32,922 bases of DNA from Clostridiales bacterium (GTDB lineage: Bacteria > Bacillota > Clostridia > Christensenellales > UBA3700). The stretch's first letter is position 1. Each line of letters opens with the position of its first letter. Positions 484 to 25,884 of the stretch are shown here, one piece after another. The position numbers and the translations under genes are program-made. The notes beneath the pieces were generated by a model. That model saw only the letters and a program-made list of their open reading frames with translations. It was not told the DNA's origin and did not search any database. Location: positions 30,009 through 62,930 of the forward strand of contig JAAVHQ010000001.1 in NCBI GenBank assembly GCA_014799645.1, in the 5' to 3' direction.

Positions 484-1086
484 TTGAATAAAAAAGTATA
501 TTCATCTTCTATAAAAAAGACACCGTTCAAATATGCTACTTCAAAGAAGATTGCGAAATTAATATTAGATGGATGTGGAAGGCAGGAAGTCTTTGATAAA
601 TGTTATACAGAGAACTATATAGAGATTGAGTCATCGGACCGTCGTAAAGAAATAACAAATGTAGTGTATTCTAGGTTGATTCACATTGACGAATTTTTAT
701 TAAAGCAATTTTATGAAAGTGATGTAGAAACGTCAAAGTTTATTCTAGTATATGCAATAGCAAAGAGTGATGAATTATTCTTTGATTTTATGTTCGAGAT
801 TTATCGAGAAGCGTTATTGGGTAATAAAGATTATATTTCCATTGACGATTTTGATAATTTCTTTGCGGTTAAAAAGGAAACCGATTTAATTGTGGCAACA
901 TGGGGATATTTCACAATTGATCAGTTGGCAAAAGGTTATAGGAATATTCTGGTCGAGTCAGGAATGGGTGTGAGAGATAGGAGAAGTATAAAAGTAACTA
1001 AACTTATGGTACATCCATTAGTGCAAGATTATATTAAGCAAATCGGAGATTCAGAATATCTAAAAGCGTTGTTAGGAGAAAACTAA
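484..1086 (+). CDS. brxA: BREX protein BrxA (DUF1819-like inner-membrane-annotated family)
   Basis: 200 aa, first gene of an ordered brxABC-pglX-pglZ-brxL locus; size and sequence character fit BrxA. TTG start with SD. Confidence 0.88.
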   Translation: MNKKVYSSSIKKTPFKYATSKKIAKLILDGCGRQEVFDKCYTENYIEIESSDRRKEITNVVYSRLIHIDEFLLKQFYESDVETSKFILVYAIAKSDELFFDFMFEIYREALLGNKDYISIDDFDNFFAVKKETDLIVATWGYFTIDQLAKGYRNILVESGMGVRDRRSIKVTKLMVHPLVQDYIKQIGDSEYLKALLGEN

Positions 1087-1087
1087 A

Positions 1088-1693
1088 ATGGCGGAAAGAA
1101 GTTTAAATGATAGATTTGTTGAGCTTGAAGATAGAATGATAAGTGTAGAGGCTTTAACACGTTATGGCACGGCAAATGACTTGAAGTTTTACATATTTGA
1201 TTATAATCCAAAAGATGAGCTTGTAGTTCGAAAAGAGGTTAAGAAGTTAAAAGAGCGAAATCCTAACATAATAGAATTTGATCTTTATGATATGATGATG
1301 CAGATTATCGATGATGAAGGATATATGGAAGATATAATCCGCATGGAGCAAGAGTATGATAGAAAATTATTATTGTCTGAAATTTTTCAACCATTGTTAT
1401 CGGTAGAAGAGGCAGATAATCGATTATTGGAAATGTTTATTGATAGAGCCGAGGATAACGGAGATAAAATAGTTCTTATAACAGGTATTGGGAAATCCTA
1501 TCCCGTAATAAGAAGCCACACTATATTAAATAATTTGCAGAGCATATTTAGACGTAATCCTGTTGTGATGATGTATCCTGGCAGGTTCGAGATAAAGAAT
1601 TTAATGACATTGAGGCTGTTTGAACGGCTTGATGATGACAATTATTACAGAGCATTCCCACTAGTGGAAAGGAGGAAAGGAAATGATTATTAA
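1088..1693 (+). CDS. brxB: BREX protein BrxB (DUF1788-like)
   Basis: 201 aa between brxA and brxC. Typical 'SLNDRFVELEDRM' start and 'NPVVMMYPGRFE' C-terminal part; overlaps brxC by 11 nt. Confidence 0.88.
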   Translation: MAERSLNDRFVELEDRMISVEALTRYGTANDLKFYIFDYNPKDELVVRKEVKKLKERNPNIIEFDLYDMMMQIIDDEGYMEDIIRMEQEYDRKLLLSEIFQPLLSVEEADNRLLEMFIDRAEDNGDKIVLITGIGKSYPVIRSHTILNNLQSIFRRNPVVMMYPGRFEIKNLMTLRLFERLDDDNYYRAFPLVERRKGNDY

Positions 1694-4600
1694 GGATTTA
1701 TTTAAGAAGGAGATCGATAGAAGCATTCAAGGTGTCGTTACCATTGGTAATGAGGATGAATGCCAAAAATTGCAGGAGCTTGAGGAGTATGTTTGCACCG
1801 ATGAGATAACGAAGTCTTTCCGTACTTTTTTCCGCAAATATAGGGAATCAATTTCTGTTCCAACGGAGAAAATAGGTGTTTGGATAACAGGCTTTTTTGG
1901 TTCTGGTAAGTCACACTTTTTGAAAATACTTGGATATATTCTTGAAAATGAGCTAGTTGTGGGTAATGAAGCGGTAAATTATTTTGAAGAAAAAATACAA
2001 GATCAAATGATTCTTGCCGACATAAAGCAATGTGCTAAAGCTAATAATAAAGTAGTTCTTTTTAATATCGATTCAAAGGCAAAATCAGATTCAAAGAATC
2101 GTTCGCAAGCTATTATGGATATTATGTTGCGCGCCTTTAATGAATCAGTTGGATACTGTGGATCTTCCCCGTGGGTTGCGGATATGGAAAGAACCTTAGA
2201 TAGTGAGAATTTACTGGAAGCGTTCATTAATAAATTTGAGGAATTGTCGGGCAGGAATTGGAGACAAACACGCGCCAAAGCTTTACTTAATCGGGATTAT
2301 ATCATCAAATCTCTTGTTGTGGCTCGTGGCATGAGCGAAGATAGTGCCAAAGATTTTGTTGACGATCAGATGAGACATTTTACAAACACAACAGAGGACT
2401 TTGCAAAAATAGTAAATGACTATTGCAAAAAGAACAAAAAGCGTGTTGTGTTTCTTATGGATGAGGTTGGGCAATTTATCGGAACAAATGGCGAACTTAT
2501 GCTTAACCTACAAACTTGTGTAGAAGATTTAGGCAAATATTGTCGTGGACAAGCATGGGTAGTCGTTACTTCTCAGCAAGAGCTGAAGGCAATGATTGAA
2601 AGTACAAAAGCAAAGCAAAACGATTTCTCGAAGATTCAAGGTCGTTTTGATATACGCCTTTTGTTAAGCGGATCAAATGCGGACGAAGTTATCAAGAAAA
2701 GAATACTAGAGAAAAAGGATATAGCAGTTACGCCTCTTAAGACACTATATGAAACTATCGGAAGCAAGATATCAAATCTTATTCTTTTTGATGGCAGACC
2801 GACTTGGAGTGGGTATGCAGATGCTGAGGAATTCAAGGACGTATATCCGTTTGTTTCGTATCAATTTGAATTATTGCAAAAAGTTTTCGAATCGATACGT
2901 GAGCACGGTATGAGTGAGGGAAAACATCTTTCACAAAATGAGCGTTCGCTTTTGAGTGCTTTTCAAGAATCAGCAAAGAAAATTGCAGATTATGAAACGG
3001 GGATATTAGTCCCATTTGACAGTTTCTATCAAACCATAGAACAGTTTATAGACTACGATATAAAAACAGTATTCTCCAATGCTGAGCGCCGTACAAGTCT
3101 TGATAAATTTGCTATTAGAGTTTTGCGTGTTCTTTTTATGATAAAGCACGTGAAAGAAATGCCGGCAACTATCAATAGACTTGCTACTTTAATGGTTGAA
3201 AGTGTAAACGAAGATAAGGCTGCATTAAAAAATCGTATTTATGAGGCGTTAAAGTTACTAGAAGAAGAAACATTAATACAACGCAATGGAGAAGTATACG
3301 ATTTCTTGACTAACGCAGAGCAGGACGTAAATAAGCAAATTAACAATATGCCCCATAATGAAGGAGATGTGCAAAGAAGCATTCTCGATATTGTATATGA
3401 TAGAGTGCTTGATAATAATAAACTGCGTTATGAAAACCGCTATGATTTTTCTTTGAATCGTATAGTAGATCAAGAGTCTAAAGGTTCATTCAGCCAAGAT
3501 AGTATCACTCTAAAAATCTTTACAAATTTTTCGGATCTGCATGATGAGGCTACTTTTGCAGCCGAATCAGCAAGAACAAATGCTGTGGTAGTTGATATGA
3601 CGGCAGGAACGTATATTGATGAATTGATTCGCGCTAATAAAATTAATATATTTAAACGTAATAATAGCGCATCAATGTCTGCTGCAATGACTGAGATAAT
3701 GAGCAAGAAATCCGCTGAGTATTCCGAGAGAATGAAACGCGCTGAAGATATAATCAGGCAAGTTCTTCGTACAGCTCCTATTTATTTGAATGGTAATAAA
3801 CTTGATATTAAAGAAAAAGATGGAAGAGATAGATTGACAGATGCATTGAAAGAAATGGTCAAGCAAGATTATTATAAGCTTGGACTTGTTTCTTATTTCT
3901 ATAACGATTCGAGAGCAGTATTTGAGGTTCTGGATGATAATATGGAAACAATGTTGGGTAGTGATTTTACGCATGACTCAAATGCTGCTGCATACTCTGA
4001 GATATTCGAGAAGATAAAAAATGATAAGTCCCTAGGTAGAAGAATTACAGTCAAGGGTTTGTTGGATTTCTTTTCTAAGAAGCCTTATGGATGGCGTGAA
4101 ATTGATGTTTTAGGTATGATTGCAACGCTTTGGAAAAAGAGCGCATTACAGATTGTAATACATGAAAATTTGGTTGACGCGAACAACCGTATGTTCAAGA
4201 ACGACTTCTCGCGTAAAAATGGCATTGATACTATGGTTATTAGAATTCAGGAAAAGATTGATGATAATATCCTTTATCAAGTCAAGAAGATAATGCTTGA
4301 TACATATGCCGAGAATTTGCCAATTGAAGAAAAGAAATTGAAAGAAGGTATTGTAAGTTTCTTTGAGCGTAAGCGTGATTTCCTATCTAATCTCAAGGTA
4401 AAGTATGGAGTTGAATATGCAGGCAGTAGAGTAGTTGCTGAAATATATCGAGATTTTGAATCTATTTTACGCTCGACAGACACAATTACGATATTCAACG
4501 AAATCATTTCTCGAAAAGATAGATTGTCTAATCACGCAGAAGAATTAGAGCAATTAGAGAGTTTCTATAAAGAAGGAAGCAATCAACAGCAAAATTATAA

Positions 4601-5219
4601 AGATGCAACATTGATTGCCGATTGGTATCGCGATAACTATATGCTGAATGATTTATCAAATTTATCCGAAGTTATTGATAAGATTAACGAGATACTAGCA
4701 CTCGAAATGCCATTTTCGAAGATGACCGAACTTGCGAATCTTGTTTTTAAGGCAAGAGAAATAAAAGAAACAATTCTTGCAGAAAAGTGTAAGCGAACTA
4801 AAAAGAGTTTGGAAACCGATAGAGATGCAGTCAACAAAGAGATGCGTGAGGCACTTGAACTCGAACTTACTGCTGAGCAAAAGAAAAGAATTGAAGATAA
4901 GGCAGAAGAATTGAATAAAACATATGACTCTTGGTTGGGGAATTTGCTTCCCAATACACCAAATATGGAGGCATACATCACATCTAGCCAGAATGCGCTT
5001 TCGAGATTTAAGGAATTTATTTCAATAATCATTACAGAAAAACGCGCTGGTGTGGAATCTACAAAATCTATTCGTAGCAAACGTGTAAAGGTAATTGAAT
5101 GTGTTCCTGTGGCTAATAAAAAAATAAAGACTAAAGATGACATAGAAAAGGTCGTAGCAACTATTAGGGAAATATTGCTTTCCGAACTCGTCGATAACGA
5201 TGAAATCAACCTTGACTGA
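1683..5219 (+). CDS. brxC: BREX ATPase BrxC
   Basis: 1178 aa; Walker A 'GVWITGFFGSGKSHFLKILGYIL', 'VVFLMDEVGQFIG' Walker B-like. BrxC position and size. Confidence 0.95.
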   Translation: MIIKDLFKKEIDRSIQGVVTIGNEDECQKLQELEEYVCTDEITKSFRTFFRKYRESISVPTEKIGVWITGFFGSGKSHFLKILGYILENELVVGNEAVNYFEEKIQDQMILADIKQCAKANNKVVLFNIDSKAKSDSKNRSQAIMDIMLRAFNESVGYCGSSPWVADMERTLDSENLLEAFINKFEELSGRNWRQTRAKALLNRDYIIKSLVVARGMSEDSAKDFVDDQMRHFTNTTEDFAKIVNDYCKKNKKRVVFLMDEVGQFIGTNGELMLNLQTCVEDLGKYCRGQAWVVVTSQQELKAMIESTKAKQNDFSKIQGRFDIRLLLSGSNADEVIKKRILEKKDIAVTPLKTLYETIGSKISNLILFDGRPTWSGYADAEEFKDVYPFVSYQFELLQKVFESIREHGMSEGKHLSQNERSLLSAFQESAKKIADYETGILVPFDSFYQTIEQFIDYDIKTVFSNAERRTSLDKFAIRVLRVLFMIKHVKEMPATINRLATLMVESVNEDKAALKNRIYEALKLLEEETLIQRNGEVYDFLTNAEQDVNKQINNMPHNEGDVQRSILDIVYDRVLDNNKLRYENRYDFSLNRIVDQESKGSFSQDSITLKIFTNFSDLHDEATFAAESARTNAVVVDMTAGTYIDELIRANKINIFKRNNSASMSAAMTEIMSKKSAEYSERMKRAEDIIRQVLRTAPIYLNGNKLDIKEKDGRDRLTDALKEMVKQDYYKLGLVSYFYNDSRAVFEVLDDNMETMLGSDFTHDSNAAAYSEIFEKIKNDKSLGRRITVKGLLDFFSKKPYGWREIDVLGMIATLWKKSALQIVIHENLVDANNRMFKNDFSRKNGIDTMVIRIQEKIDDNILYQVKKIMLDTYAENLPIEEKKLKEGIVSFFERKRDFLSNLKVKYGVEYAGSRVVAEIYRDFESILRSTDTITIFNEIISRKDRLSNHAEELEQLESFYKEGSNQQQNYKDATLIADWYRDNYMLNDLSNLSEVIDKINEILALEMPFSKMTELANLVFKAREIKETILAEKCKRTKKSLETDRDAVNKEMREALELELTAEQKKRIEDKAEELNKTYDSWLGNLLPNTPNMEAYITSSQNALSRFKEFISIIITEKRAGVESTKSIRSKRVKVIECVPVANKKIKTKDDIEKVVATIREILLSELVDNDEINLD

Positions 5220-5230
5220 TAGGAGTATAT

Positions 5231-7823
5231 ATGGATAAAAGAGCATTACAACTTTATGCAATGTGGGCAAAGGATAATTTGGAAAAACAAGTAGAAGTTT
5301 CCTTAAAGATGATTGGTATCAATGGGGACACAGATATCAAAGAATCAAGAGTCATAGGAGATTATACTGTTATTGAGAATGATCCTATTTCATATCCTAA
5401 AGAATTGCATAGTAAGCGTCAAATGATAGTCGAACTTATTAAGAGTGATGGATATAAAACTACAATAGAGGAGTTTGCATATACGTGGTTTAATCGTTTT
5501 GTGTCTTTACGCTTTATGGAGGTACATGACTTTTTGCCGCATGGTTTCCGATTGCTTTCTTCACGAGAGGGTAGTATAGAGCCTGAAATATTAAAGAATC
5601 TTCCGTTTGTAAAAGACGACCTGGAACTTGATTTAACACAATGCGAGAAACTTAAAGCCACAGGAATTGAGGATCTATATAGATATGTGCTATTCCGTCA
5701 ATGCAAGGCATTATCGGGAATATTACCAATGTTATTCGAAGCAGATAATGATTGCTTAGAATTATTATTACCTAAGACGCTTTTACTTGGCGATACAGTG
5801 ATTACAAAACTTGTGGCACTTGGAGAAGATGTGTTCCTCGAAGATATAGAAGTAATTGGTTGGCTGTATCAATTTTATATATCTGCGAAAAAAGACGCTG
5901 TTTATAAAGAAAAGAAGACAATAACAAAAGATACGTTGCCAGCCGTTACGCAGTTGTTCACACCGGATTGGATTGTGCGTTATATGGCAGAAAACTCATT
6001 GGGGAGGCTCTGGTTAGAAAGTTATCCAGCATCCCCATTGCGCAATGAGATGAAGTATTTTGTTCCTGAGGCTGTTCAGCCAGAAGAGGTGCAGCGCAAA
6101 ATTGATTCAGTAAAATATACATCGGTAAATCCAGAAGATATCAAGATAATTGAGCCGTGTTGTGGCTCTGGGCATATCCTTGTATATGTATTTGATTTAT
6201 TATATAAAATTTATGAAGAGAAAGGTTATCAAAAGCGTGATATACCTACGTTAATATTATCCAAAAACATATGTGGTCTCGATGTTGATAAACGCGCATC
6301 GCAGCTTGCAGCATTTTCGCTTGTAATGAAGGCGAGAAGTGTTAATCCTCGGTTTTTTAACTCTAATTATTATGTAAAGCCACAAGTATACGAAATATGG
6401 GATTCTCGTGTACTACATAGAATGAGATATAAGAAATTATTAGAAGAGACAAATCTTCTTTCGGCTGAGCAGATAGAGGATATTGAGTATTTGGCAGAAC
6501 AATTCCGTTATGCTAAAACGATAGGCTCATTACTCAAGATAAAACAAATGAATTGGGACCGCATAGATAACACAATAAATATACTTGAGCAAAAAGTAGT
6601 TTACAACGTGTTTAATCTAGAATTGTTGAATATAGCAATTCCACTTATTAAAAGGCTTGTAGTGCAGGCAAAAATACTTGCAAATAAATATGACGTTATG
6701 ATTACGAACCCGCCATATATAGGTATATCATCAATGGAATCGCAAGTGAAAGACTATGCTGTAACGTTTTATCCAAACAGCAAAACTGATATGTTTGCTA
6801 TGTTTATGGAGACAGAGTTTGTAAAACCAAATGGGTTCTGCGCTATGATAAATATGCACAGCTGGATGTTCCTTTCAAGTTATGAGAATTTGCGCAAGTC
6901 AATTTTGATGACAAAAGAAATAGTAACTATGGCTCATCTGGGTGCAAGGGCGTTTGAGACAATAGGTGGCGAGGTTGTTCAAACGACAACATTTGTAATA
7001 CGCAATGGAAACTTTGGCGGTAACGGAGTTTATTTCAGACTAGTGGATAGCAGTGATAAGGAGAATGATTTCCTTAAAACCCTTAGAAATGCGGGGGGTG
7101 GGGGTACTCTACATAGTTAGTGCAGAGGTATTCTTTTCTATTCCTAGTAACTTAATTATTTATTGGTTGAGCAATGCTATAATCGAAGTTTTTGGGAAGA
7201 GTAAAACATTGTCATCAATAGCAACTCCAAAACAGGGATTAGCTACTGGTAAAAATGATTTGTTTGTTAGATTATGGCATGAGGTCAAGACTGAAAAACT
7301 TTGCCTGGATGCAACGGACTCTATTCAAGCAGTATCTACTGGGAAGAAATGGTTTCCTTATAACAAGGGCGGGGCATATAGGAAATGGTATGGGAATAAT
7401 GATTGCATTATAAACTGGGAAGCAAATGGTCGAGCGATCAGTAATTATTCTGGATCAGTTATAAGAAATCCAAATTACTATTTCTTTGAGTCAATCTCAT
7501 GGTCCAAGATTGCAAGTGGTCCAATTGCATTTAGATATAAGCCTAATGGACACATATTTGATGTAGCAGGATGCAGTATATTTTGCGAACATTCTCAATT
7601 GGAGTATTTGTTAGGAGCAGTAAACTCTAATGTTATAATGAATATCATAAAATCAACTGCGCCTACACTTAATTATGAGGTTGGTCAAGTAGCAAATATC
7701 CCTATTATTTTCGAGAACGAAAATGCAGTTCGCGAAGTAGTGGACAAAAATATAAAAATAAGTAAAGCGGATTGGGATTCTTTTGAAGAGTCATGGGGCT
7801 TTGGAAAGCATCCACTAATATAA
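5231..7823 (+). CDS. pglX: BREX adenine methyltransferase PglX, N-terminal methyltransferase plus first specificity-like module; frameshifted at the 7093-7104 G tract (ORFs 5231-7120 and 7053-7823)
   Basis: Motif I-like 'EPCCGSGHILVYVFD' and N6-MTase motif 'NPPYIG'. The frame from 5231 ends at 7120 just after GCGGGGGGTGGGGG; homologous PglX sequence continues in the other frame as 'LYIVSAEVFFSIPSNLIIYWLSN...HPLI'. Confidence 0.9.
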
Positions 7824-7826
7824 CAG

Positions 7827-7858
7827 CAGGAGGATTATTATTCTCCTGAAAACAGGAG
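7827..7858 (+). promoter_or_regulatory. Two mutually exclusive short hairpins overlapping the Shine-Dalgarno of the second PglX module
   Basis: CAGGAG (7827-7832), CTCCTG (7843-7848), CAGGAG (7853-7858). The middle arm can pair with either flanking arm; the downstream CAGGAG is the likely SD for ATG 7864. Confidence 0.55.
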
Positions 7859-7863
7859 AGAAT

Positions 7864-8592
7864 ATGCCAAATTTGAAATATGAAACAAAGATGGACACTT
7901 ATAGTAAATTACCGGGTAATCCTATAGCCTATTGGATTGGATTAGACCTAATTAAATGTTTTGAGGAAGGTAAGAGATTTGATTCGTTTGGAGAGCCTAA
8001 GTCTGGGGTTATGACAGGTGATGATAATAAGTTTATTCGCCTTTGGTTTGAACCAATTTCTAAAAAAATTGGGTTCGGTCTTAAGAATGCGATAGAAATG
8101 AAAGAATCTATGAAGAAATGGTTTCCAGTAACGCGTGGTGGATCATATAGGAAGTGGTTCGGTAATCTTGAAGAAATAGTAAATCTAGAAAATGGTGGTT
8201 ATGCTATAAAGAATAATGGCAAGAATTATCGTCTAAGAGATGAAAAGTATTATATGCAAGAAGGACTGACTTGGACAATGATTACGACTACCAATTTATC
8301 TGTACGTATAGCTGAAGCTGGCGTATTATTTGGTAATGGAGGCCCAACAACATTTGTTAAAGAAAAAGAGTATTATTTGCTAGGATTGTTAAATAGTAAA
8401 GTCGTTAATGCAATCGTAAGTGTACTTAATCCTACGATGAATATTGTCATTAGCGACATCTGTTCAATTCCCGTTATTTTTAACAGGGTTGAGCCAGTTG
8501 AAACTATAGTTGCTAATAATCTTGTAATATCAAAATACGATTGGAATGCTTTTGAGACCTCATGGGATTTTAAAAGGCATCCATTAATTTGA
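7864..8592 (+). CDS. Stand-alone second copy of the PglX specificity-like (post-methyltransferase) module
   Basis: 242 aa, visibly homologous to 7105-7823: 'KLPGNPIAYWIG' vs 'SIPSNLIIYWLS', 'KKWFPVTRGGSYRKWFGN' vs 'KKWFPYNKGGAYRKWYGN', 'WNAFETSWDFKRHPLI' vs 'WDSFEESWGFGKHPLI'. Confidence 0.88.
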   Translation: MPNLKYETKMDTYSKLPGNPIAYWIGLDLIKCFEEGKRFDSFGEPKSGVMTGDDNKFIRLWFEPISKKIGFGLKNAIEMKESMKKWFPVTRGGSYRKWFGNLEEIVNLENGGYAIKNNGKNYRLRDEKYYMQEGLTWTMITTTNLSVRIAEAGVLFGNGGPTTFVKEKEYYLLGLLNSKVVNAIVSVLNPTMNIVISDICSIPVIFNRVEPVETIVANNLVISKYDWNAFETSWDFKRHPLI

Positions 8593-8599
8593 GGTAATT

Positions 8600-8920
8600 A
8601 TGATAAGAGTTGTTTTAAAGAGTAAAAAAGAATTACACTATGCCGAGGCAATCATAGATGACAAAGAAACTTTAGTACTAAAAGGTGCAAAGATTAATTT
8701 AATTGAATCTTTTCCGCAAATGTCTCAAGCATTGATTCTATTGCGCAGAGATAGAATGTTAGTATCAGAGGATGGGGTATTGCTCAAAGATATAAAATTT
8801 ACTAGTCCAAGTACAGCTGCGCAGTTTGTTACTGGTAGAAGTGTAAACGGTTATATTGCTTGGCGCCCTAATGACGAAATAAGCCTTAAAGAATATCTTG
8901 GGAAAAGGAGAGAAATTTGA
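8600..8920 (+). CDS. Small DUF4357-like protein
   Basis: 106 aa; 'LVLKGAKINLIESFPQ...LKDIKFTSPSTAAQFVTGRSVNGYIAW' matches the recognisable DUF4357 pattern (SPS-AA-FV-GRS-NG---W). Confidence 0.7.
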   Translation: MIRVVLKSKKELHYAEAIIDDKETLVLKGAKINLIESFPQMSQALILLRRDRMLVSEDGVLLKDIKFTSPSTAAQFVTGRSVNGYIAWRPNDEISLKEYLGKRREI

Positions 8921-10065
8921 TGAAAGAGACCCTTGTTGCACTTATAGACGATATTTCAAATATAGAAAAACATTTTTATATTCCCTCAATGCCAGCGGGG
9001 GCATTTGCCGTTCCAGTAGAGCAAATTAGCAATAGTCAGGAATTTCAATTATGGAGACAGAAAGTTTTACGTGAGTTGCATGAACTCTATTCTGTACATG
9101 ACAAAGACAAATTTCTAAAAGGGACAATTGAAGCTTTGACAAAAGATTTCAATACTTGGCAAGAACGAAAAGATTTTAATAATCTTAAAGCCAAATTGCT
9201 GGCGATACTAGATAATATCGATGTTTATTATGCGCCTGCAGTAGAAAAAGAGAATCTTGATAAACCTGCAATGATTTTTATCAGTCATTCAACAAAAGAT
9301 AAAGAATATGCGACAGCGTTAGTTAATTTGTTTGAGAGTATGGGATTAGATGAAGATACTGTTTTTTGTAGTTCAGTTCCAGGCTATGATGTAAAATTGG
9401 GAAATGACATATATGAACATCTAAGAAATTTATTTCAGACAAGAGATTTACATATTGTATATATGTTATCTAAGAACTTTTATAATAGTCCTGCAAGTTT
9501 AAATGAAATGGGGGCTGCATGGGTACTTAAAAATGAAGTTACATCTATATTGTTGCCTGGATTTAGTTTCGATGAAATGAAAGGAGTAGTGGATAATCGA
9601 GAAATAGCTATAAAACTAGATGTCGATGAAATAGAATTAAAGGACAAGCTTAATCAGTTATATGAAACAATAATTAACGAGTTTAAGTTGAAGAAAAAAA
9701 GTAGTACACTTTGGGAATGTAAACGTGATTCTTTCATAAAAAGAGTTGTAGGTATACATGGAAGCGTAGAATCCAAAGTGGCTAAGGCAGAGATATTAAG
9801 CAAAGAAGCAGAGGAGATTTTAAAGAATGCTATTCAGAGTTATGATGCACAAATTATTGTTGCTCATTATATAACTGGTGGGAAATGTATTCAAGTAGGC
9901 TGTAAAAGCTATTCGGAATCAATGGGAGCAAGGGAATTTAGTAAATGGGACGCGGCATTTGATGAATTGTTAAGAATCGGATATGTTAAGGCGATTGGAA
10001 CGAAGGGGTCTGTTTTCCAGGTTACAAATGCTGGGTTTAAATATATTGAGGAGAAAGTTAAATAG
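8920..10065 (+). CDS. TIR-domain protein with N-terminal helical region and C-terminal winged-helix-like tail
   Basis: 'MIFISHSTKDKEYATALVNLFESMGL' TIR start and 'YNSPASLNEMGAAW', containing the putative catalytic Glu. ATG at 8920 overlaps the preceding stop (TGATG). Confidence 0.82.
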   Translation: MKETLVALIDDISNIEKHFYIPSMPAGAFAVPVEQISNSQEFQLWRQKVLRELHELYSVHDKDKFLKGTIEALTKDFNTWQERKDFNNLKAKLLAILDNIDVYYAPAVEKENLDKPAMIFISHSTKDKEYATALVNLFESMGLDEDTVFCSSVPGYDVKLGNDIYEHLRNLFQTRDLHIVYMLSKNFYNSPASLNEMGAAWVLKNEVTSILLPGFSFDEMKGVVDNREIAIKLDVDEIELKDKLNQLYETIINEFKLKKKSSTLWECKRDSFIKRVVGIHGSVESKVAKAEILSKEAEEILKNAIQSYDAQIIVAHYITGGKCIQVGCKSYSESMGAREFSKWDAAFDELLRIGYVKAIGTKGSVFQVTNAGFKYIEEKVK

Positions 10066-10075
10066 GAGATTGATT

Positions 10076-11011
10076 ATGGGTAGATTAATTGAAGATAAGT
10101 ATAGAGCTTGGGAAGAAGAGTGCGAGCAACGATTTAATCAACTCAAGGCAAACGAGGAGGAACTCAACCGTATTTTCATTGAGATTTATGGTCTACAAGA
10201 TGAGCTTACTTCCGAAGTAGAAGATAAGGATATAACAGTGCGCAAAGCTGATTTGCAACGTGAGATTAAGTCACTAATCTCCTATCTTATAGGTGTTGAG
10301 TTTGGTAGGTATTCTCTTGATGTGGAAGGGCTTGTGTATGCGGGCGGAGAATGGGATAGTTCTAAGTACACTACATATATTCCTGATGAAGATGGAATTG
10401 TTATGGTGTATTCTAAACTTGGTATGCAAGATGGACTGGCAGCGCGTATTATTAAATTAATAAAGCATATCTATGGGGAAGATACATATCGTCAAAATAT
10501 AGATTTTATAGCAGAAGCGCTTGGTAAAAAACAGAATGAAGCATCCGAAGAGACATTAAATCGGTATATTTGTGATGATTTCTATACTGACCATTTAAAG
10601 ATTTACCAAAAGCGTCCTATCTATTGGATGTTTTCAAGTGGCAAAAATAGTGGTTTCAAATGTTTGATTTATATGCATAGGTACAATGAAGATACAGTTG
10701 CGAGAATCAATGCAAAGTATTTTCTTCCAGAATCCACTAGATTAAAGAATGAACTTGACGAAATTGAAATAGCGGTGGAAGGCAGTGAAGGACGAGATAA
10801 GATCCGATTGGATAAAGAGCGATCCAAGATAGCCGCTGCTTATAACGAAGCAATTGAATATGGTCAAATACTCGATAATATAGCAAATCAATATATTAAA
10901 ATTGATTTAGATGATGGAGTTAAAGTAAACTATGAAAAATTCCAAAATATAGAGATTGTAACTGACGGTGGAACGAAAGTTAAAAAGAACTTGCTAGTTC
11001 CTATTAAGTAA
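10076..11011 (+). CDS. Free-standing C-terminal segment of PglX
   Basis: 'YRAWEEECEQRFNQLKANEEELNRIFIEIYGLQDELTSEVEDKDITVRKADLQREIKSLISYLIGVEFGRYSLD...DFYTDHLKIYQKRPIYWMFSSGKNSGFKCLIYMHRY' is the canonical PglX C-terminal region. ATG 10076 has an AGGAG upstream; the longer ORF from 9983 overlaps the TIR gene. Confidence 0.9.
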   Translation: MGRLIEDKYRAWEEECEQRFNQLKANEEELNRIFIEIYGLQDELTSEVEDKDITVRKADLQREIKSLISYLIGVEFGRYSLDVEGLVYAGGEWDSSKYTTYIPDEDGIVMVYSKLGMQDGLAARIIKLIKHIYGEDTYRQNIDFIAEALGKKQNEASEETLNRYICDDFYTDHLKIYQKRPIYWMFSSGKNSGFKCLIYMHRYNEDTVARINAKYFLPESTRLKNELDEIEIAVEGSEGRDKIRLDKERSKIAAAYNEAIEYGQILDNIANQYIKIDLDDGVKVNYEKFQNIEIVTDGGTKVKKNLLVPIK

Positions 11012-11021
11012 GAGGTGTATA

Positions 11022-13544
11022 ATGGCAAATATCGATTATCAAGAAGCGATAAAAGAGATAGAGAAGATTTTTCGCGCAGATATTTTAACGCGAAAGATAG
11101 TTTTTTGGTACGATGCTCCTGCTAATTTCAAGGATGATATTGAGACGGCATCGTTTGATTTCTGTAGGCTTTTGGTGTGTCAAAATAATGAATTCGCTAT
11201 AAAGAAAACTATAGAGAAAGATGACACCACAAGCAACATACTTGTCTATATTCCTTCTGAAAAACCGAAGGATACTGAAAATTGGCTTTTGGATATTTTG
11301 ATGTACAGCGAGGAATATTACGCAGATACTGTTGCGCTTACTATGCGCCATCTTGGACTTTCAAATCCAGACTTACGCAAAGTAATAGAAAAGCATACAA
11401 AGTTTTTTGATAGTTCACAAAGAAACAGAAAACTTGAGAATTATGTTTCATTAAATGATGGGATGACTACAAATAATTTTATGCTTGCTATGATATCGGT
11501 ATTAGTAAAATCATCTGTTCGTTCCATAGAGGCTATTTTGACAGAACTTGTTTTTGACAATAGTGATCATTCTAAGTATAAAGAACTTTGCAAGTTTGGT
11601 TTTGAGGATTATCTATGGGATGAAATTGCAAAAGAGTATGATTATTCCGGAGATCAAAAAATAGATAGTCTCATCAAGAAATTTTTGTTTACAGCTATGC
11701 TTGAACAAGATATGCAGCTTGGGACATTGCCGTCATTTTATAAGCAATTTATAATTGATGGAGAAGGAAAAAATGGCGCAAAGAGTTTTGTGCACCATAT
11801 TAAGCAAGATCCACGTTATAGAGAACTGCAACTCAACGTCGCAACAGATCTTAAAATTGATGGGCTTTTGGTGGCAAGAGATGCTAGTTGTATTGGGACG
11901 AGCGATATATTCGAGTGTATTGAGAGTTGCGTGATAAAGAAAGTGTCTGCGAGCTTGGTGAGTGGTAGCCTTGATTATGATGCGTTTGTTAAGATAATTA
12001 ATGATAGAAACAACTCTATGTGGCAAGCTGAACATAAGGATGAGTATTCTTTTTTACGATCGGCAATAGAGTTTTTGCGTTTAGTGGATGTTTCTATTCC
12101 GCATGATTTGTCAGCTGTAGAATATATTAAACTTTATACTAACATATTATATAAAGTCGATATGAATTATAGGCATCTTTGTATTAGCTATGACAAGATA
12201 GAAAATCCCATTTTTGAAATTGAAGAATTATGTTGTAGAATAGAGTCACATTATGAGCAGAATTATTTGGGAGAACTAGGAAGAGAATTCAGCGCAGCTG
12301 TTTCCAAACAAAATAAATGGGATTTCTCAGGTATTCAAAAAAGTTCGCAGTTCTATCAGCTTATTCAAAGGCAACAATATAAAAAGCAGTTTGTAATCAT
12401 TTCTGATGGATTAAGATATGAAGTTGGATATGAGATTTTCAATAGTATTAAGAATAATTCTGCACTGCGAGGCAAGGTCTCGATAGATTATGCAGTTTCA
12501 CCATTGCCGTCTGAAACAAGATTTGGTATGGCATCGCTACTTCCTCATAAAGAGCTTGCTTATATTGACGGATCCGTTTTAGTTGATGGAAAAGCATCAA
12601 ACTCTTTCGCTGCTCGGAATGAGATTCTAAAAGCGAAAAATGCAGGGCATGCTGCAATCGCATACGAAGAAATCAATCGTTTTACAAGAGACCAACTTCG
12701 TGTATACATGTCAGACAAGTCACTTGTGTATATTTATCATAATGTAATAGATAAAGCAGGAGAGCATAACGAAACAAAGGTGTTTGACGAAACGATAAAC
12801 GCAATTGAAGAAATTACATCACTGGTCAAGAAACTTTATAATAATCTACAGATATCTAATTTCTATATCACAGCAGACCATGGTTTCTTGTATAGACAGA
12901 ATGTAATAGGTGAATCTGAAAAATATAGTAATATAGTTTCGCAAAGTCCTATTGAGGCATCAAAAAGGTATGTGCTTACGGATGACGACAGTATTAGTAT
13001 TCCGTACACAACGGAATTTAGACTCGAAGAAATTCACGGAGATTTGCGAGTAATCAATCCGTATGGATATGACTTATTTAAAACACAAGGAGCAGGCTTA
13101 CAGTATGTTCATGGTGGAGCCTCTTTGCAAGAAACAATTATTCCTATTGTGCACATAAGCGAACTTAATGCGAAGAAAGGCGAAAAATTGTCACGCCCAG
13201 TTGGAGTTCGTTTAAAGAGCGTGACAAGAAAGATTACAAATAGGAGTTTCGCACTTGATTTTGAACAATATGAGAAAGTTGAAGATAAAGTACAAGCGAT
13301 TAATTGTGAAACATATTTCGTAGATGAAAATGGATATAAAGTTTCAGGGGAATATCGTTTTATTGCAAACTCTAGCAGTGATGATATCGCCACAAGGGTG
13401 ACTCGTATTAGGTTCACTCTTAAAAATATAGAATTTGATAGAAACAATCGTTACTATCTTATCTTGCGAAATGTAGAATCGGATAGCGAATATATTGAGA
13501 AAGAACAGTTCACGATTGATATTCTAGGATTTAGAACTTTTTAA
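11022..13544 (+). CDS. pglZ: BREX phosphatase-superfamily protein PglZ
   Basis: 840 aa; 'FVIISDGLRYEVGYEI' and 'ITADHGFLYRQ' alkaline-phosphatase-like metal motifs; correct position before brxL. Confidence 0.95.
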   Translation: MANIDYQEAIKEIEKIFRADILTRKIVFWYDAPANFKDDIETASFDFCRLLVCQNNEFAIKKTIEKDDTTSNILVYIPSEKPKDTENWLLDILMYSEEYYADTVALTMRHLGLSNPDLRKVIEKHTKFFDSSQRNRKLENYVSLNDGMTTNNFMLAMISVLVKSSVRSIEAILTELVFDNSDHSKYKELCKFGFEDYLWDEIAKEYDYSGDQKIDSLIKKFLFTAMLEQDMQLGTLPSFYKQFIIDGEGKNGAKSFVHHIKQDPRYRELQLNVATDLKIDGLLVARDASCIGTSDIFECIESCVIKKVSASLVSGSLDYDAFVKIINDRNNSMWQAEHKDEYSFLRSAIEFLRLVDVSIPHDLSAVEYIKLYTNILYKVDMNYRHLCISYDKIENPIFEIEELCCRIESHYEQNYLGELGREFSAAVSKQNKWDFSGIQKSSQFYQLIQRQQYKKQFVIISDGLRYEVGYEIFNSIKNNSALRGKVSIDYAVSPLPSETRFGMASLLPHKELAYIDGSVLVDGKASNSFAARNEILKAKNAGHAAIAYEEINRFTRDQLRVYMSDKSLVYIYHNVIDKAGEHNETKVFDETINAIEEITSLVKKLYNNLQISNFYITADHGFLYRQNVIGESEKYSNIVSQSPIEASKRYVLTDDDSISIPYTTEFRLEEIHGDLRVINPYGYDLFKTQGAGLQYVHGGASLQETIIPIVHISELNAKKGEKLSRPVGVRLKSVTRKITNRSFALDFEQYEKVEDKVQAINCETYFVDENGYKVSGEYRFIANSSSDDIATRVTRIRFTLKNIEFDRNNRYYLILRNVESDSEYIEKEQFTIDILGFRTF

Positions 13545-13556
13545 TGGAGGAAGGTT

Positions 13557-15581
13557 ATGGACGCATTAGATAAAAAAGTATTTGAGATATTTTCTGGAAG
13601 AGTTGTGCCTAAAGGCGCAACGAAAAAGATTAAAAATAGCGCAAATGTGCCAACGTATGTTTTGGAATATTTGTTGGGTACATATTGTACTTCTGATGAT
13701 GAGGCAGAAATCGAGGAGGGAATAGAGCAAGTAAAACGCATTCTCTCTGATAATTACGTTCGTCCAGACGAAGCGGAGAAAATTAAGGCAAAAATCAAAG
13801 AAAAAGGTAATCATACAGTTATTGATAAATTGAGTGTAAAACTCAATGAAAGAAATGACACTTTTGAAGCCGATTTTATGTTTCTTGGCATTAATAAAAT
13901 TTATGTTCATCCTAAGTATGTTCGCCAATACGAAAAATTACTTGCGGGAGGCATTTGGTGTATTGTCGATATGTCATACTATTTTAATGAGGACGAAAAT
14001 GCTAGTCCATTTATTATAAATGATATTACGCCAATTCAAATGCCAAATCTTGATAAGAATGAAATTATAGAAGCGAGAAAGCAATTCTCAAAGGAAGAGT
14101 GGATTGATTTTATTTTGCGTTCTACTGGTATGGAACCTACTCAATTTGATTATAGAGTAAAATGGCATCTTCTTGCACGACTTGCTCCTCTAGTCGAAAA
14201 TAATGTCAATCTTTGTGAGTTAGGCCCACGTGGTACGGGGAAGTCACATATTTATAAGGAGCTCTCTCCTAATTCAATTTTGATTTCTGGTGGACAGACA
14301 ACAGTTGCAAATCTCTTTTATAATATGGGTAGAAGGCAAGTCGGACTTGTAGGCTTGTGGGATTGTGTCGCTTTCGATGAAGTTGCTGGTATCAATTTCA
14401 AAGATAAAGATGGCGTCCAAATTATGAAAGACTATATGGCCTCAGGTTCGTTTGCTCGCGGTAAGGATGAAATTCAGGCAAATGCTTCTATGGTTTTTGT
14501 GGGCAATATCAATCAAAGCGTTGATCTGCTTTTGAAAACGTCGCACTTATTCGAGCCGTTTCCAAGTGCTATGATAGATAGCGCTTTCCTTGATCGTATG
14601 CATTGCTATATTCCAGGTTGGGAAATCCCAAAGATGCGACCAGAATTCTTTACTGATAATTATGGATTTATATCAGATTATATCTCTGAATTTTTCCGAG
14701 AAATGAGAAAAGTACCGCAAACCGATGCTTTCGACAAGTATTTTAGGCTTGGCAGATGTTTGAATCAAAGAGATACCATTGCAGTAAGGAAAATGGTGTC
14801 AGGATTGACAAAAATTATTTATCCTGACGGAGTTGTCACGGAGGAAGAAATAGAGGAAATTCTGAAATATGCCATTGAAGGACGAAGACGTGTAAAAGAG
14901 CAACTTAAGAAGATTGGAGGAATGGAATTTTATGATGTCCAATTCTCATATATTCGCAATGCTAATATGGAGGAGTATTTTGTACCTGTCTTAGAGCAAG
15001 GCGGTGGTAAATTGATTTCTGAGGGCGTAGGCAAGCCAGGACATATCTACACGGTTGCAAATGGAAGTAATGGAATGAAAGGACTATTTAAGTTCGAGAC
15101 CACGATAGCAGAAGGTAGCGGTAAATTTGAGGTGACAGGATTGACTAGTTCGCAGGTTGTTAAGGAATCTGTCAAAATTGCTCAAAACTATTTTAAGGCC
15201 AATGCAAAACAAATAAGTCGACTCATATCGTTAGATTCCAAAAACTATGTTATGCAAGTACAGGATTGCCAAGGTGTAGGGCTTGATAGCAACGTCTCAC
15301 TTGCCGTCCTTGTAGCATATTGCAGTTGTGCGTTGAATAAATCTGTGTTGCCGCAGCTTTGTGTTTTGGGTGCTATGAGCATAGGCGGAACAATTAATAA
15401 AGTTGAAGAATTAGCATCTACGTTGCAAGTTTGCTTTGATGCAGGAGCGAAAAAAGTACTGTTGCCAATGAGTAGTGCTATTGATATAGCTACGGTACCG
15501 AGTGATTTATTTGCTAAATTCCAAATATCATTTTATAGTAGTCCCGAAGATGCGGTAATAAAGGCTTTGGGGATAGAATGA
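13557..15581 (+). CDS. brxL: BREX Lon-like protein BrxL
   Basis: 674 aa; Walker A 'LGPRGTGKSHIYKEL' and a C-terminal Lon-protease-like region; terminal core gene of type 1 BREX. Confidence 0.94.
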   Translation: MDALDKKVFEIFSGRVVPKGATKKIKNSANVPTYVLEYLLGTYCTSDDEAEIEEGIEQVKRILSDNYVRPDEAEKIKAKIKEKGNHTVIDKLSVKLNERNDTFEADFMFLGINKIYVHPKYVRQYEKLLAGGIWCIVDMSYYFNEDENASPFIINDITPIQMPNLDKNEIIEARKQFSKEEWIDFILRSTGMEPTQFDYRVKWHLLARLAPLVENNVNLCELGPRGTGKSHIYKELSPNSILISGGQTTVANLFYNMGRRQVGLVGLWDCVAFDEVAGINFKDKDGVQIMKDYMASGSFARGKDEIQANASMVFVGNINQSVDLLLKTSHLFEPFPSAMIDSAFLDRMHCYIPGWEIPKMRPEFFTDNYGFISDYISEFFREMRKVPQTDAFDKYFRLGRCLNQRDTIAVRKMVSGLTKIIYPDGVVTEEEIEEILKYAIEGRRRVKEQLKKIGGMEFYDVQFSYIRNANMEEYFVPVLEQGGGKLISEGVGKPGHIYTVANGSNGMKGLFKFETTIAEGSGKFEVTGLTSSQVVKESVKIAQNYFKANAKQISRLISLDSKNYVMQVQDCQGVGLDSNVSLAVLVAYCSCALNKSVLPQLCVLGAMSIGGTINKVEELASTLQVCFDAGAKKVLLPMSSAIDIATVPSDLFAKFQISFYSSPEDAVIKALGIE

Positions 15582-15634: not shown

Positions 15635-16363
15635 ATGTATAATTTTAAGAATTCAAAATCAAATATAATCAACATATTAAAATCAAAGACTCCAATAGAA
15701 GATAAAGAAAAAATTCCAGCTAATCAAGAATTTACTTATGCCAATGCTGTCAGAACATGGGTAAGTGCAATATTTGTTGATATAAAAAGTTCAAGCGAAT
15801 TATTTAAGAATAGGGATGAGAAATTAGCAAGATTGTTAAGAGCATTTACATCTGAAATTATTACGATTTTTCAAGACTCCAATAACTATAATCAAATAGG
15901 AATTAGAGGCGACTGTGTATATGCAATTTACTCTACTCCCCAAAAGGATGATATTAAAGATGTATTTGATATTGCTGTAAAAACAAATACATTTATGAAA
16001 ATGTTTAACAAATTATTAACAGAGCAAGGTTATAGCAATATTGGAGTTGGCATAGGATTGGGAACTGATAAGCAATTAATTATAAAGGCAGGAAGATCAG
16101 GAACTGGAATAAATGATAAGATTTGGATAGGAGATGCTGTTGTTGATGCCTCGAATTTATCTTCTATAGCAAATAGATACGGCTATAAAAAAATTGCAAT
16201 GAATAGCTGCTTTTACAATAATATTAAAAAGTATTATGAGAAAAAGCCTTGGTTTAATTATATTTCGAATTCAACTTATTATAACGATGGATTTTACGAA
16301 TGCGATATAGTTAACACTGAATTTGATAACTGGATAAAAGGTGGAATGAAAGACAATGTCTAA
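15635..16363 (+). CDS. Class III nucleotide cyclase, PycC-like (Pycsar)
   Basis: 242 aa; 'AIFVDIKSSSELF', 'GIRGDCVYAIYS', 'GVGIGLGTDKQLIIKAGRSGTGINDKIWIGDAVVDASNLSSIA' fit a Pycsar cyclase. Overlaps the membrane-protein gene by 8 nt. Confidence 0.85.
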   Translation: MYNFKNSKSNIINILKSKTPIEDKEKIPANQEFTYANAVRTWVSAIFVDIKSSSELFKNRDEKLARLLRAFTSEIITIFQDSNNYNQIGIRGDCVYAIYSTPQKDDIKDVFDIAVKTNTFMKMFNKLLTEQGYSNIGVGIGLGTDKQLIIKAGRSGTGINDKIWIGDAVVDASNLSSIANRYGYKKIAMNSCFYNNIKKYYEKKPWFNYISNSTYYNDGFYECDIVNTEFDNWIKGGMKDNV

Positions 16364-16859
16364 TGAAAAATTAAATGAAAGTTTGCAAGTAATACAAGGT
16401 CAAATTGAGAAATTTGATAATAAAGCGAGCATTTTAATTGCGATTGTGAGCATAGTATTTGCTATCAGTTTAGAGACGTTAAATGTATTTCAGCAAATAT
16501 TTGTACAAGATATGACACAGAAGATTTTCATTAAATACATATTGGCAATAGTGTTTTTATGTTTTTATTTTACATCTTTTATTCTAGAGATGTTTTTCTT
16601 AATCTTAGTTATTTTTCCTAGGAAAAAGAAAAAGAGTGAGTGTCAGTCACTTTCATATTATTTGGATGTTTCCAAGATGACGAAAGAAGAAATTGAAAAG
16701 CAAGCCAGCGTTATGAATGAATCCGCAATTATAGTGGATCAATTGAGCGTTAATGCAAAAATATGCGCTAAGAAGCACAAGAATTTTGTAATCGCTATAT
16801 GGTTAATGATTCCACTAGTGTTATTTATGATAGCATTAACCTTTTTATCAATAATATAG
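16356..16859 (+). CDS. Small multi-pass membrane effector, PycTM-like (DUF5706-like)
   Basis: 167 aa; 'SLQVIQGQIEKFDNKASILIAIVSIVFAISLETL' followed by further TM segments; translationally coupled to the cyclase. Confidence 0.82.
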   Translation: MSNEKLNESLQVIQGQIEKFDNKASILIAIVSIVFAISLETLNVFQQIFVQDMTQKIFIKYILAIVFLCFYFTSFILEMFFLILVIFPRKKKKSECQSLSYYLDVSKMTKEEIEKQASVMNESAIIVDQLSVNAKICAKKHKNFVIAIWLMIPLVLFMIALTFLSII

Positions 16860-16874
16860 AATAGGAGAACAATT

Positions 16875-18884
16875 ATGCACATAAGTAAAATAAAAGCGAA
16901 TAACTTTAGAAATTTTTACAACCTAGAAATTGATTTGCATGATGGCTTGAATGTTATTGTAGGACCAAATAATGTGGGAAAAACAAATATTATGAGGATA
17001 ATTAGTTTTTTAGGTTCTGATCCCAATAGTGGCTCTAGCATTGAGGATTTTAATAAATATATATTGTTGCAAGAATTAGAAAGTATTAAAGAGAAGCCAC
17101 CTATCATTGAAATTGAATATACTATAGAACATGATTTGAATTTTGCGGAAGAGGATTCTGCGTTTTCAAAGTTATCAAACATTCTGGTTTTTGATCCAAT
17201 TACAGGAGGACTTGAATACAAAATCGGAGATGAATCAGCTCATTTAGTGGCAAAGGTAGAATTGCGATATGAATATGATTATAAAGAAATTGAAATTTAT
17301 AAGCAGGAAATGAGAAATGCAAATGAATTTAAGGATGTTTATAATGCGCTAAATAAATTGCAGCAAAATTTTAAATGGAATTTTTATAATGTAACATCCA
17401 AGGAGATAATCGATAAAAAATTTATAAATAATATATTTGAAATAGATACAATTGATGCGACAAGAACTATTGATAGATTAACTGATAATTCGAGAAAATA
17501 TATTAATGATAAAGTAAAAGATAAAAAAATAGATGTGTTTTCAATAAAGCAGAAAATTACTGAAACAATTCAAGGCGGATTAGGTGAGGTAAAGAAAGAA
17601 ATAGATAATGATATAAATGAAGATCAGAATCAAATAGGCATTACAAATGGTAAAAATAAATTCGTTTCCAACTTTTTCTTTGAGGGAGAATTGTCAGATT
17701 TTTTCAAATACGAACTAGAGGATGATACGTTTGGATTTTCTTTACCACTAGATCATAATGGGCTTGGATATAATAATTTGATCTATATGAGAAATTTATT
17801 AAAGCAAAAGAGCAAGAATGATTATAATATTATTCTTTTAGAGGAACCAGAAGCTCATTTGCATCCAAATATGCAATATAAATTATTAAAGTATATTGAG
17901 GACTTAAAGGAGCAGGAAACTGAAGAGACTAAAATTAAAAATCAAATTTTTATTACAACCCATTCTTCAAATATTACAGCTACGCTGAATACTAGTAGTA
18001 TTATTCTACTAACAATTGATAGAAGATGCAATCCTCCAATTACTAGATCAACAATTTTATCAAACAACTATAATTATGAAAAAGTAAAAACAAATTTTGA
18101 TGAGAATTTGGATAAAAAAGAAGAAAGAATCAAATTGTTGAAACGTGGTGAAGAACATATTTCTAAGTTTTTAGATGTAACAAGGAGTGATATTTTATTT
18201 TCTGATAAAATCATATTAGTCGAGGGAATTGCTGAGAAATTACTGCTTCCTAAATTTTTTAATACGCTTGTAAATGATCATATTTCTGTAATAGAGCTAG
18301 GAGGAATAAACTTTAATTATTTTTTACCACTAGTATTTAATACTAATAAAAAAATACTATGTATTACTGATAAAGATATAGAAATTATAAATGAGACAGA
18401 TGAAGGGCTAGAGCTTAACGTGGATGATTATAATAATAAGCGGCCGCAAATAGATGAAATGTTTTTGCATCTAGCAGATAAAGTAAAAGTTAATCAACAG
18501 ACGAAGTTTGGTTCTACTTTTGAGAAAGAAATCTTTATTGAGAATTATGATAATGGATTTGAACTATTATTAGGCCTTGTATTGCCAGCTGGATATAATG
18601 AGTTAATAAAACATAAGAGCCTAGTCTACTGGGATATTAACATTGATAAAGAAATTGCTAATGGTCGACAAAAGAAGTTCTTAAAAGATATGATTAATAA
18701 ATATATAAAACTATATGGACAAGTAAGCGATAAATCTTTAGTTGAGAAAATGTTCTTTACAAATTTATTTTATCATTATGTGAAAGACAAAAAGGGAAGT
18801 TTTGCTTTAGACTTGTTTAACAATGTCGATAGAATTAATATTCCAACATATATTAAGGAGGGAATAGAATGGTTGAATTCATAG
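16875..18884 (+). CDS. OLD-family ATPase/TOPRIM nuclease (GajA-like)
   Basis: Walker A 'VGPNNVGKTNIMRI', 'LLEEPEAHLHP', 'THSS', then TOPRIM 'ILVEGIAEKLLLPKFF' and 'CITDKDIE'; next gene is a UvrD helicase. Confidence 0.85.
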   Translation: MHISKIKANNFRNFYNLEIDLHDGLNVIVGPNNVGKTNIMRIISFLGSDPNSGSSIEDFNKYILLQELESIKEKPPIIEIEYTIEHDLNFAEEDSAFSKLSNILVFDPITGGLEYKIGDESAHLVAKVELRYEYDYKEIEIYKQEMRNANEFKDVYNALNKLQQNFKWNFYNVTSKEIIDKKFINNIFEIDTIDATRTIDRLTDNSRKYINDKVKDKKIDVFSIKQKITETIQGGLGEVKKEIDNDINEDQNQIGITNGKNKFVSNFFFEGELSDFFKYELEDDTFGFSLPLDHNGLGYNNLIYMRNLLKQKSKNDYNIILLEEPEAHLHPNMQYKLLKYIEDLKEQETEETKIKNQIFITTHSSNITATLNTSSIILLTIDRRCNPPITRSTILSNNYNYEKVKTNFDENLDKKEERIKLLKRGEEHISKFLDVTRSDILFSDKIILVEGIAEKLLLPKFFNTLVNDHISVIELGGINFNYFLPLVFNTNKKILCITDKDIEIINETDEGLELNVDDYNNKRPQIDEMFLHLADKVKVNQQTKFGSTFEKEIFIENYDNGFELLLGLVLPAGYNELIKHKSLVYWDINIDKEIANGRQKKFLKDMINKYIKLYGQVSDKSLVEKMFFTNLFYHYVKDKKGSFALDLFNNVDRINIPTYIKEGIEWLNS

Positions 18885-21760: not shown

Positions 21761-21946
21761 ATGGAATTATTTAAAGACTATCCCGACGTTGTAAGTGTTG
21801 AACAAGTGTCGGAGATGTTGCACATTGGACAAGTGCTTGCATATAGACTTGTCCGCAGCGGTGAGATTAAATCACGCAAAGTAGGACGCAGATATATCAT
21901 CGCAAAGCGAAACGTAATCGAATTTATAAATGAGGAGGCAGCATAA
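21761..21946 (+). CDS. Excisionase-like helix-turn-helix protein
   Basis: 61 aa; 'VVSVEQVSEMLHIGQVLAYRLVRSGEIKSRKVGRRYIIAKRNVIEFI', MerR-like HTH of Xis type; overlaps the integrase start. Confidence 0.85.
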   Translation: MELFKDYPDVVSVEQVSEMLHIGQVLAYRLVRSGEIKSRKVGRRYIIAKRNVIEFINEEAA

Positions 21947-23598: not shown

Positions 23599-23639
23599 AT
23601 AATTTAGAAAAAGTAATTGCCCTTTCTTTTAGATTACTC

Positions 23640-23668
23640 TTGATATTTTTGTCAAGAGGTGCTAAAAT
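23640..23668 (+). promoter_or_regulatory. Promoter of the structured RNA / SLOG leader
   Basis: TTGATA (23640-23645), 17-nt spacer, TAAAAT (23663-23668). Confidence 0.75.
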
Positions 23669-23672
23669 AATC

Positions 23673-23867
23673 TTGCGACGTCAAATTAAATAAACCTTTT
23701 GTAATTCCCAGATTAATGGGAGTCCAGACTTTGTTTGCGTGAAAGGTAGGATGAAAATTGGTAGTAATACCTGTTCCGACCTGCTTTCCACGGAAAAAGG
23801 TTTATTTGGCGTCGCAACCAAAGGGACGGTATTCTACGGTGCCGTTCCGCAAGGGGCGGCATCTTTT
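23673..23867 (+). ncRNA. Structured RNA (~195 nt) or 5' leader ending in an intrinsic terminator; family unassigned
   Basis: Long closing stem TTGCGACG...AAATAAACCTTTT (23673-23700) with AAAAGGTTTATTT..CGTCGCAA (23795-23817); internal hairpins TCCCA/TGGGA, CGTGAAAGGTAGG/CCTGCTTTCCACG and GGTA/TACC; terminator GCCGTTCC-GCAA-GGGGCGGC (23841-23860) plus T5. Confidence 0.75.
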
Positions 23868-23868
23868 T

Positions 23869-24378: not shown

Positions 24379-24469
24379 AACAAGACGAACTATAATAATT
24401 GGGGCAATTTAATTGCGTAAACTGTTTGCTAATCATGTCGAACTTATGTTTATATCTATCCGATAAATA

Positions 24470-24498
24470 TTGACAAAATATGGGTTATTAATTATAAT
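24470..24498 (+). promoter_or_regulatory. Promoter of the AbiH-like gene
   Basis: TTGACA (24470-24475), 17-nt spacer, TATAAT (24493-24498); AGAAAGGAG upstream of ATG 24528. Confidence 0.8.
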
Positions 24499-24527
24499 TA
24501 TTTTGACAATAGAAAGGAGAAGAATTA

Positions 24528-25793: not shown

Positions 25794-25884
25794 AGTAAAG
25801 AATTACATAATTAAAGATATTATCGAAACTATATCGAAGATATTGGTGATAAAAGATTAGCTGTGAGAATTTGAAGGATAGATT

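Follow-up and report, generated by a model that had tools for sequence, protein, structure and literature searches.

The window, a stretch of 32,922 nucleotides from a Clostridiales bacterium, carries a Type 1 BREX gene set, with brxA, brxB, brxC, pglX, pglZ, and brxL all present, in order, and on the plus strand at 484-15581 as identified with PADLOC and Pfam. The operon opens with brxA (484-1086; PADLOC BrxA, E 8e-49), brxB (1088-1693; PADLOC BrxB, E 2e-53), and brxC (1683-5219; PADLOC BrxC, E ~0), and closes with pglZ (11022-13544; PADLOC PglZ, E 1e-201, and Pfam PglZ) and brxL (13557-15581; PADLOC BrxL, E ~0, and Pfam BrxL_ATPase and BrxL_N). The pglX in the middle is divided. A preliminary description of this DNA had assigned two ORFs to a BREX pglX, at 5231-7120 (629 aa) and 7053-7823 (256 aa), and both were found. 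Both match the PADLOC PglX profile (E 9e-213 and 2e-81), which is 1174 positions long, and their matches abut at profile positions 618 and 627. The first encodes the N-terminal and methyltransferase domains (profile 1-618) and ends, in the assembled frame, at the hinge between the methylase and the first target recognition domain (TRD). That domain, TRD-A or TRD1, occupies 7104-7823 on the same strand (profile 627-869) and ends HPLI-stop.

At this frame change lies an interrupted poly-G tract, G6-T-G5, at 7093-7104 on the plus strand, as the preliminary description had it save for a quoted end that was one base off. Bases 7088-7108 read AATGC (7088-7092), G6 (7093-7098), T (7099), G5 (7100-7104), and TACT (7105-7108). 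The tract acts as the frame-setting element of the hinge. In the assembly the methylase and TRD1 are out of frame and unfused, and they are joined only when the tract changes by -1 or +2; translation bears out the earlier claim that deleting one G or inserting two links 5231-7120 with 7053-7823, giving ...NAGVGVLYIV... and ...NAGGGGVLYIV..., respectively. No other run of at least six G occurs in the window, there are about 16 in the 1.68 Mb genome, and dinucleotide shuffling gives an expectation of 0.02 tract-like 12-mers per window with one mismatch allowed.

Downstream of TRD-A, also on the plus strand, is a standalone spare TRD, TRD-B or TRD2 (7864-8592; PADLOC PglX profile 626-869, E 2e-75), with its own ATG, an AGGAGA ribosome site, and the same HPLI-stop ending; TRD-A and TRD-B are 36% identical. 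An AlphaFold model of TRD-B had a mean pLDDT of 46 from a 16-row alignment, too low for use. Two further plus-strand genes follow, a DUF4357-domain ORF (8600-8920; Pfam PF14267, E 1e-12) and an SpbK-like TIR-domain protein (8917-10065; PADLOC spbK, E 8e-62). The TIR gene has a TTG start at 8917 with an ATG shortly downstream, and a 64% identical counterpart occupies the same place in locus L002. The PglX C-terminal domain (CTD) is a gene of its own on the plus strand (10076-11011; profile 876-1166), starting MGRLIEDKY within an ORF at 9983-11011 whose true start is probably the ATG at 10076. The CTD genes of other split loci are likewise separate, are 71-90% identical to that of the window, and have the same MGRLI start. 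PglX in the window is therefore not one polypeptide with an integral TRD and CTD but three pieces, methylase(-TRD1), TRD2, and CTD, a layout that the preliminary description had missed, and the methylase, TRD-A, TRD-B, and CTD ORFs show no further disabling mutation.

Placed on E. coli BrxX (9ewz), these pieces cover residues 6-635 (methylase), 649-870 (TRD-A), 644-870 (TRD-B), and 946-1190 (CTD). The published borders of BrxX are 211-650 for the methylase, 651-837 for the TRD, and 838-1205 for the CTD, with a flexible methylase-TRD hinge at residues 638-675 (PMC11842806), so that the tract falls at the hinge and pglX is split near its domain borders. Canonical Type 1 BREX PglX/BrxX, as in E. 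coli and Salmonella, has the methylase, TRD, and CTD in the same order as the window, but as a single chain of roughly 1200 aa that includes one integral TRD, and a 2025 review describes the TRD as integral to the BREX methylase (PMC12707154). We considered and rejected a full-length single pglX carrying a sequencing error: repair of the tract yields only a methylase-TRD1 protein ending HPLI-stop. The restored protein would not be a full PglX because the CTD is a separate gene, with a spare TRD gene in between. Inversion of a TRD cassette or site-specific recombination at the tract was also set aside, as no notable inverted repeats and no long direct repeats were found around TRD-A and TRD-B in the window; the integrase of the window (21946-23598) is far from the tract.

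To place this arrangement among relatives, we compared 67 distinct pglX loci from public genomes, window included, each having one or more TRDs and an almost complete methylase part; the architecture was in part assigned from TRD-B matches. Nine of the 67 have two or three TRD modules, with a separate CTD gene wherever the contig reaches the CTD; the second TRD of L004 is joined to its CTD, and the L008 contig stops short of the CTD. The standalone TRDs of these loci have their own start codons, intact frames, and mostly clear ribosome sites. A poly-G tract at the hinge was found in eight of the nine multi-TRD split loci versus none of 58 single-TRD pglX. Tract lengths are G6TG5 in the window, G9 in L002 and L003, G10 in L005 and L008, G11 in L087 and L088, and G12 in L091. 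Three of these loci (L003, L008, and L091) are fused in the assembled frame, and the other five (the window, L002, L005, L087, and L088) are unfused. Viral contigs yielded a single distant full-length match, and every match to plasmids was below 60% identity.

The association of tract and multiple TRDs is strong but represents few independent events, because all nine loci fall in one clade. In the methylase tree, the 12 nearest loci are the nine multi-TRD loci plus L006, L007, and L077, which form a single clade with local support of 0.994, and the Fisher p of 1e-9 for co-occurrence is inflated by this shared ancestry. L006, L007, and L077 lack a tract and have just one TRD; of the three, L007 and L077 are full-length, and the CTD of L006 contains a frameshift. 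L004 has no tract either. Its methylase is a fixed 631-aa ORF with a stop at the hinge, after which GGAG...TAAGAATG opens a separate TRD with an ATG and ribosome site, followed by the TRD-CTD fusion. The simplest history would be one gain, then joint loss of the tract and the spare TRD in the L006/L007/L077 sublineage, with L004 keeping a fixed split.

In two more distant pglX loci, L078 and L079 (35-39% identical), the CTD is likewise cut off from the TRD by intervening genes; each has a single TRD and lacks a hinge tract, and theirs is apparently an independent event at the same domain border. Some pglX frames are broken in places without a poly-G tract, at or near the hinge in L052, inside the TRD in L080, and in the CTD in L006, and these breaks are likely to be common frameshifts or errors of assembly.

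The sequences of L087 and L091 speak most directly for a toggling of the frame by tract length between close relatives. These loci are 92% identical in DNA over 7.6 kb and have identical immediate flanks, GCATTTTTGAT-[G]-TATAACTACTAACC, and yet the G11 of L087 leads to a stop while the G12 of L091 reads through into an 867-aa methylase-TRD1 frame. This pair provides the length polymorphism between close relatives expected of a contingency locus, and in all eight tract loci the length of a mononucleotide tract within coding sequence sets the frame. A long, uninterrupted tract (about 7 or more) is also expected of such a locus; the other seven loci have one (G9-G12), but the window has G6-T-G5, the sole T-interrupted tract among the eight. 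Slippage should be far less frequent in runs of 6 and 5 than in runs of 9-12, and because of the T the window allele is the least mutable of the eight. It is the weakest carrier of the tract, being interrupted and out of frame, and may switch slowly or be stuck unfused. Phase variation by poly-G in pglX, as proposed in the preliminary description, is well supported for the family, on eight loci with G9-G12 plus G6TG5 and the G11/G12 pair, and less so for the window allele.

The sequence following the tract is unusual as well. In all eight tract loci one frame fuses the methylase to TRD1, while both others stop 0-4 codons past the tract. At the corresponding position, both off frames stop so soon in 4 of 55 single-TRD control loci, and over nearby offsets in 6.4% of cases, where control positions were placed by TRD-B matches and L091 was counted through the flank it has in common with L087. 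If about four independent lineages are assumed, the chance of this pattern is 0.064^4, or about 2e-5. The immediate stops suggest that a clean methylase domain is produced when the parts are unfused, though they could instead simply mean clean inactivation. Among L087, L088, and L091, dN/dS is 0.07-0.11 for the methylase and 0.06-0.12 for the CTD, so the methylase is under strong purifying selection even though two of these three loci are unfused, and the CTD gene likewise. The TRD blocks of the same three loci are just 36-51% identical in protein within flanking DNA that is 89-92% identical, which indicates that TRD modules are exchanged as cassettes while the tract stays. The conserved ends of the cassette are IPG.PIAYW and SWDFKKHPLI-stop.

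Poly-G tracts are altered reversibly by slipped-strand mispairing. Judged from these sequence comparisons, a poly-G contingency switch at the hinge of a split multi-TRD PglX family is well supported. Our main reading, to which we give a probability of about two in three, is that the window tract is a degenerate copy of this conserved element and that the switch alters the recognized motif. Since the CTD is separate and a spare TRD gene is present, switching may alter specificity instead of turning BREX on or off. Relatives differ in tract length, with one frame fusing the methylase to TRD1 and both others ending at the hinge, and we propose that the fused state would give a PglX with TRD1 specificity, aided by the separate CTD, while in the unfused state the bare methylase would work with the standalone TRD2 (and TRD3) and the CTD in trans. 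The switch would then change the motif recognized and methylated, and hence the phages excluded, across the population. The window allele is unfused as assembled, and its T interruption probably makes switching slow, if it occurs at all. Use of a TRD and CTD in trans by a BREX methylase is plausible by analogy with EcoKI, in which the methylase and specificity parts work either fused or as coupled separate genes (PMC3510504); against it, known PglX/BrxX proteins hold the TRD and CTD in one chain. The fullest form of the proposal, a Type 1 BREX lineage with a Type I-like modular PglX whose tract picks stochastically between TRD1 in cis and TRD2/TRD3 in trans, yielding subpopulations that differ in motif and phage range, we hold tentatively, at nearly even odds.

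A close rival to this specificity switch is a plain on/off switch, in which the tract toggles TRD1-PglX and the standalone TRDs are a recombination reservoir for the TRD1 position, without use in trans. This behavior is established for S. coelicolor (PMC4365076) and Cj0031 (PMC4889913), and the swapping of TRD blocks between relatives with 91% identical flanks would fit a reservoir, in which the conserved cassette ends could serve recombination. The standalone TRDs nonetheless keep start codons and intact frames with mostly clear ribosome sites, L004 has a methylase and TRD that are fixed as separate genes, and both off frames terminate the methylase almost immediately. We regard on/off switching as a serious possibility at less than even odds, and a specificity switch (TRD1 in cis versus spare TRDs in trans), similar to that of NgoAV, as the most likely purpose of the tract. 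It is also quite possible, though less likely than not, that the switch has decayed in the window genome, the T having frozen the unfused frame so that phase variation no longer takes place and leaving either a fixed split like that of L004 or a dead TRD1. The window tract is the only interrupted one of the eight, and the sublineage of L004, L006, L007, and L077 shows that tracts can be lost; the methylase, TRD-A, TRD-B, and CTD ORFs are, however, free of other disabling mutations, and G6 is still able to slip at a low rate.

The remaining explanations concern the out-of-frame state itself. The preliminary description named a sequencing or assembly indel as the main alternative, with the true window sequence in frame. 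The window genome is a 34-contig draft, homopolymers are error-prone, and a single base decides the frame, so an error here is possible. The overall pattern can, however, be explained without it, and as a general cause it is unlikely, since the tract recurs in eight genomes. The frame is lost at exactly this position in five of the eight independent assemblies, including the named-strain genome of L002. The T moreover marks the window tract as a distinct sequence, and even a real indel in the window would leave the family-level switch in place; we consider this explanation improbable. Least probable of all is programmed ribosomal or transcriptional slippage on the G tract, by which every cell would make both fused and unfused products. 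Long homopolymers can promote such slippage and both halves stay intact in unfused loci, but L003, L008, and L091 are genetically in frame, and lengths ranging over 9-12 would be needless for a fixed programmed site.

Phase variation of pglX through poly-G length is already known, and the gene has been noted as commonly phase-variable or disrupted (PMC11341690, PMC9122589). The parallel with Streptomyces coelicolor drawn in the preliminary description is right in mechanism, as a change from 8 to 7 G in pglX switches phage defense there (PMC4365076), but that Pgl system is a Type 2 BREX with a single pglX, and is not known to have spare TRDs or a separately encoded C-terminal domain. The window is not of the S. 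coelicolor type (PglW kinase, no BrxL), as it has BrxA, BrxB, and BrxL, and PglW was not among the matched window operon genes (PADLOC, Pfam). The proposed switch more closely recalls NgoAV of Neisseria gonorrhoeae, in which a G-tract change in hsdS1/hsdS2 fuses or separates recognition parts and alters specificity (PMC9577141). NgoAV differs in being a Type I R-M system with HsdR, with the tract inside hsdS and not between a BREX methylase and a TRD; separate TRD genes are present in the nine multi-TRD loci, and HsdR was not among the matched operon genes of the window. In the Type IIG enzyme Cj0031 of Campylobacter jejuni, a G9 tract similarly splits a methylase-recognition fusion into two frames and alters methylation (PMC4889913). 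Cj0031 is, however, a simple on/off system outside BREX with the restriction enzyme fused in, and no spare TRDs are described downstream of it. EcoKI HsdM/HsdS is active as two coupled genes or as one fusion once a frameshift is removed (PMC3510504), as in our model, but that fusion is engineered, is not phase-variable, and belongs to a Type I R-M system.

A PglX split in this way, with several TRDs and a switch at the hinge, seems not to have been described in the literature searched, which took in few subscription journals and neither preprints nor the original BREX survey. The main text of a 2026 BREX survey (PMC12839542) is free of wording on split, fragmented, truncated, or frameshifted genes and uses "phase-variable" once. 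The current view is that a single large protein fixes BREX specificity. If the proposed switch is real, a clonal population could carry several BREX specificities simultaneously, and these loci would make it possible to test in a natural setting if a BREX methylase accepts recognition domains in trans, and would open a route to modular re-targeting of BREX.

Long G runs are far more numerous in the genome of L002 than in that of the window. The single run of at least eight G in the window genome is a G9 on the minus strand (G000:C9:38195-38203, L086), which falls outside the ATG-started ORFs of at least 90 aa there. The genome of L002 (G100, Pumilibacter muris) has 115 overlapping G8 matches, probably some 50 poly-G tracts of at least 8, and its phase-variable genes may be numerous.

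Accessory genes vary from locus to locus in a hotspot, the gap that separates the last TRD from the CTD gene. It holds TIR/SpbK-like genes in the window (8600-10065) and L002 (11534-13525), PDC-M14A/B in L087 (9664-10747), PDC-S05 in L088 (8822-9880), small ORFs in L091 (reversed; 9274-10100), one of them apparently a membrane protein, and AbiH in L079 (7233-8141); in L078 the gap spans 7418-8341. Directly downstream of brxL, window positions 15635-20785 hold a Pycsar pair, cyclase (15635-16363) and TM effector (16356-16859), and a Gabija pair, GajA (16875-18884) and GajB (18869-20785), forming a dense defense island. The island continues over 21946-28941 with a tyrosine integrase (21946-23598), a YspA-type SLOG protein (23758-24378), an AbiH-like protein (24528-25793), and a UvrD/GajB-like helicase on the reverse strand (26458-28941).
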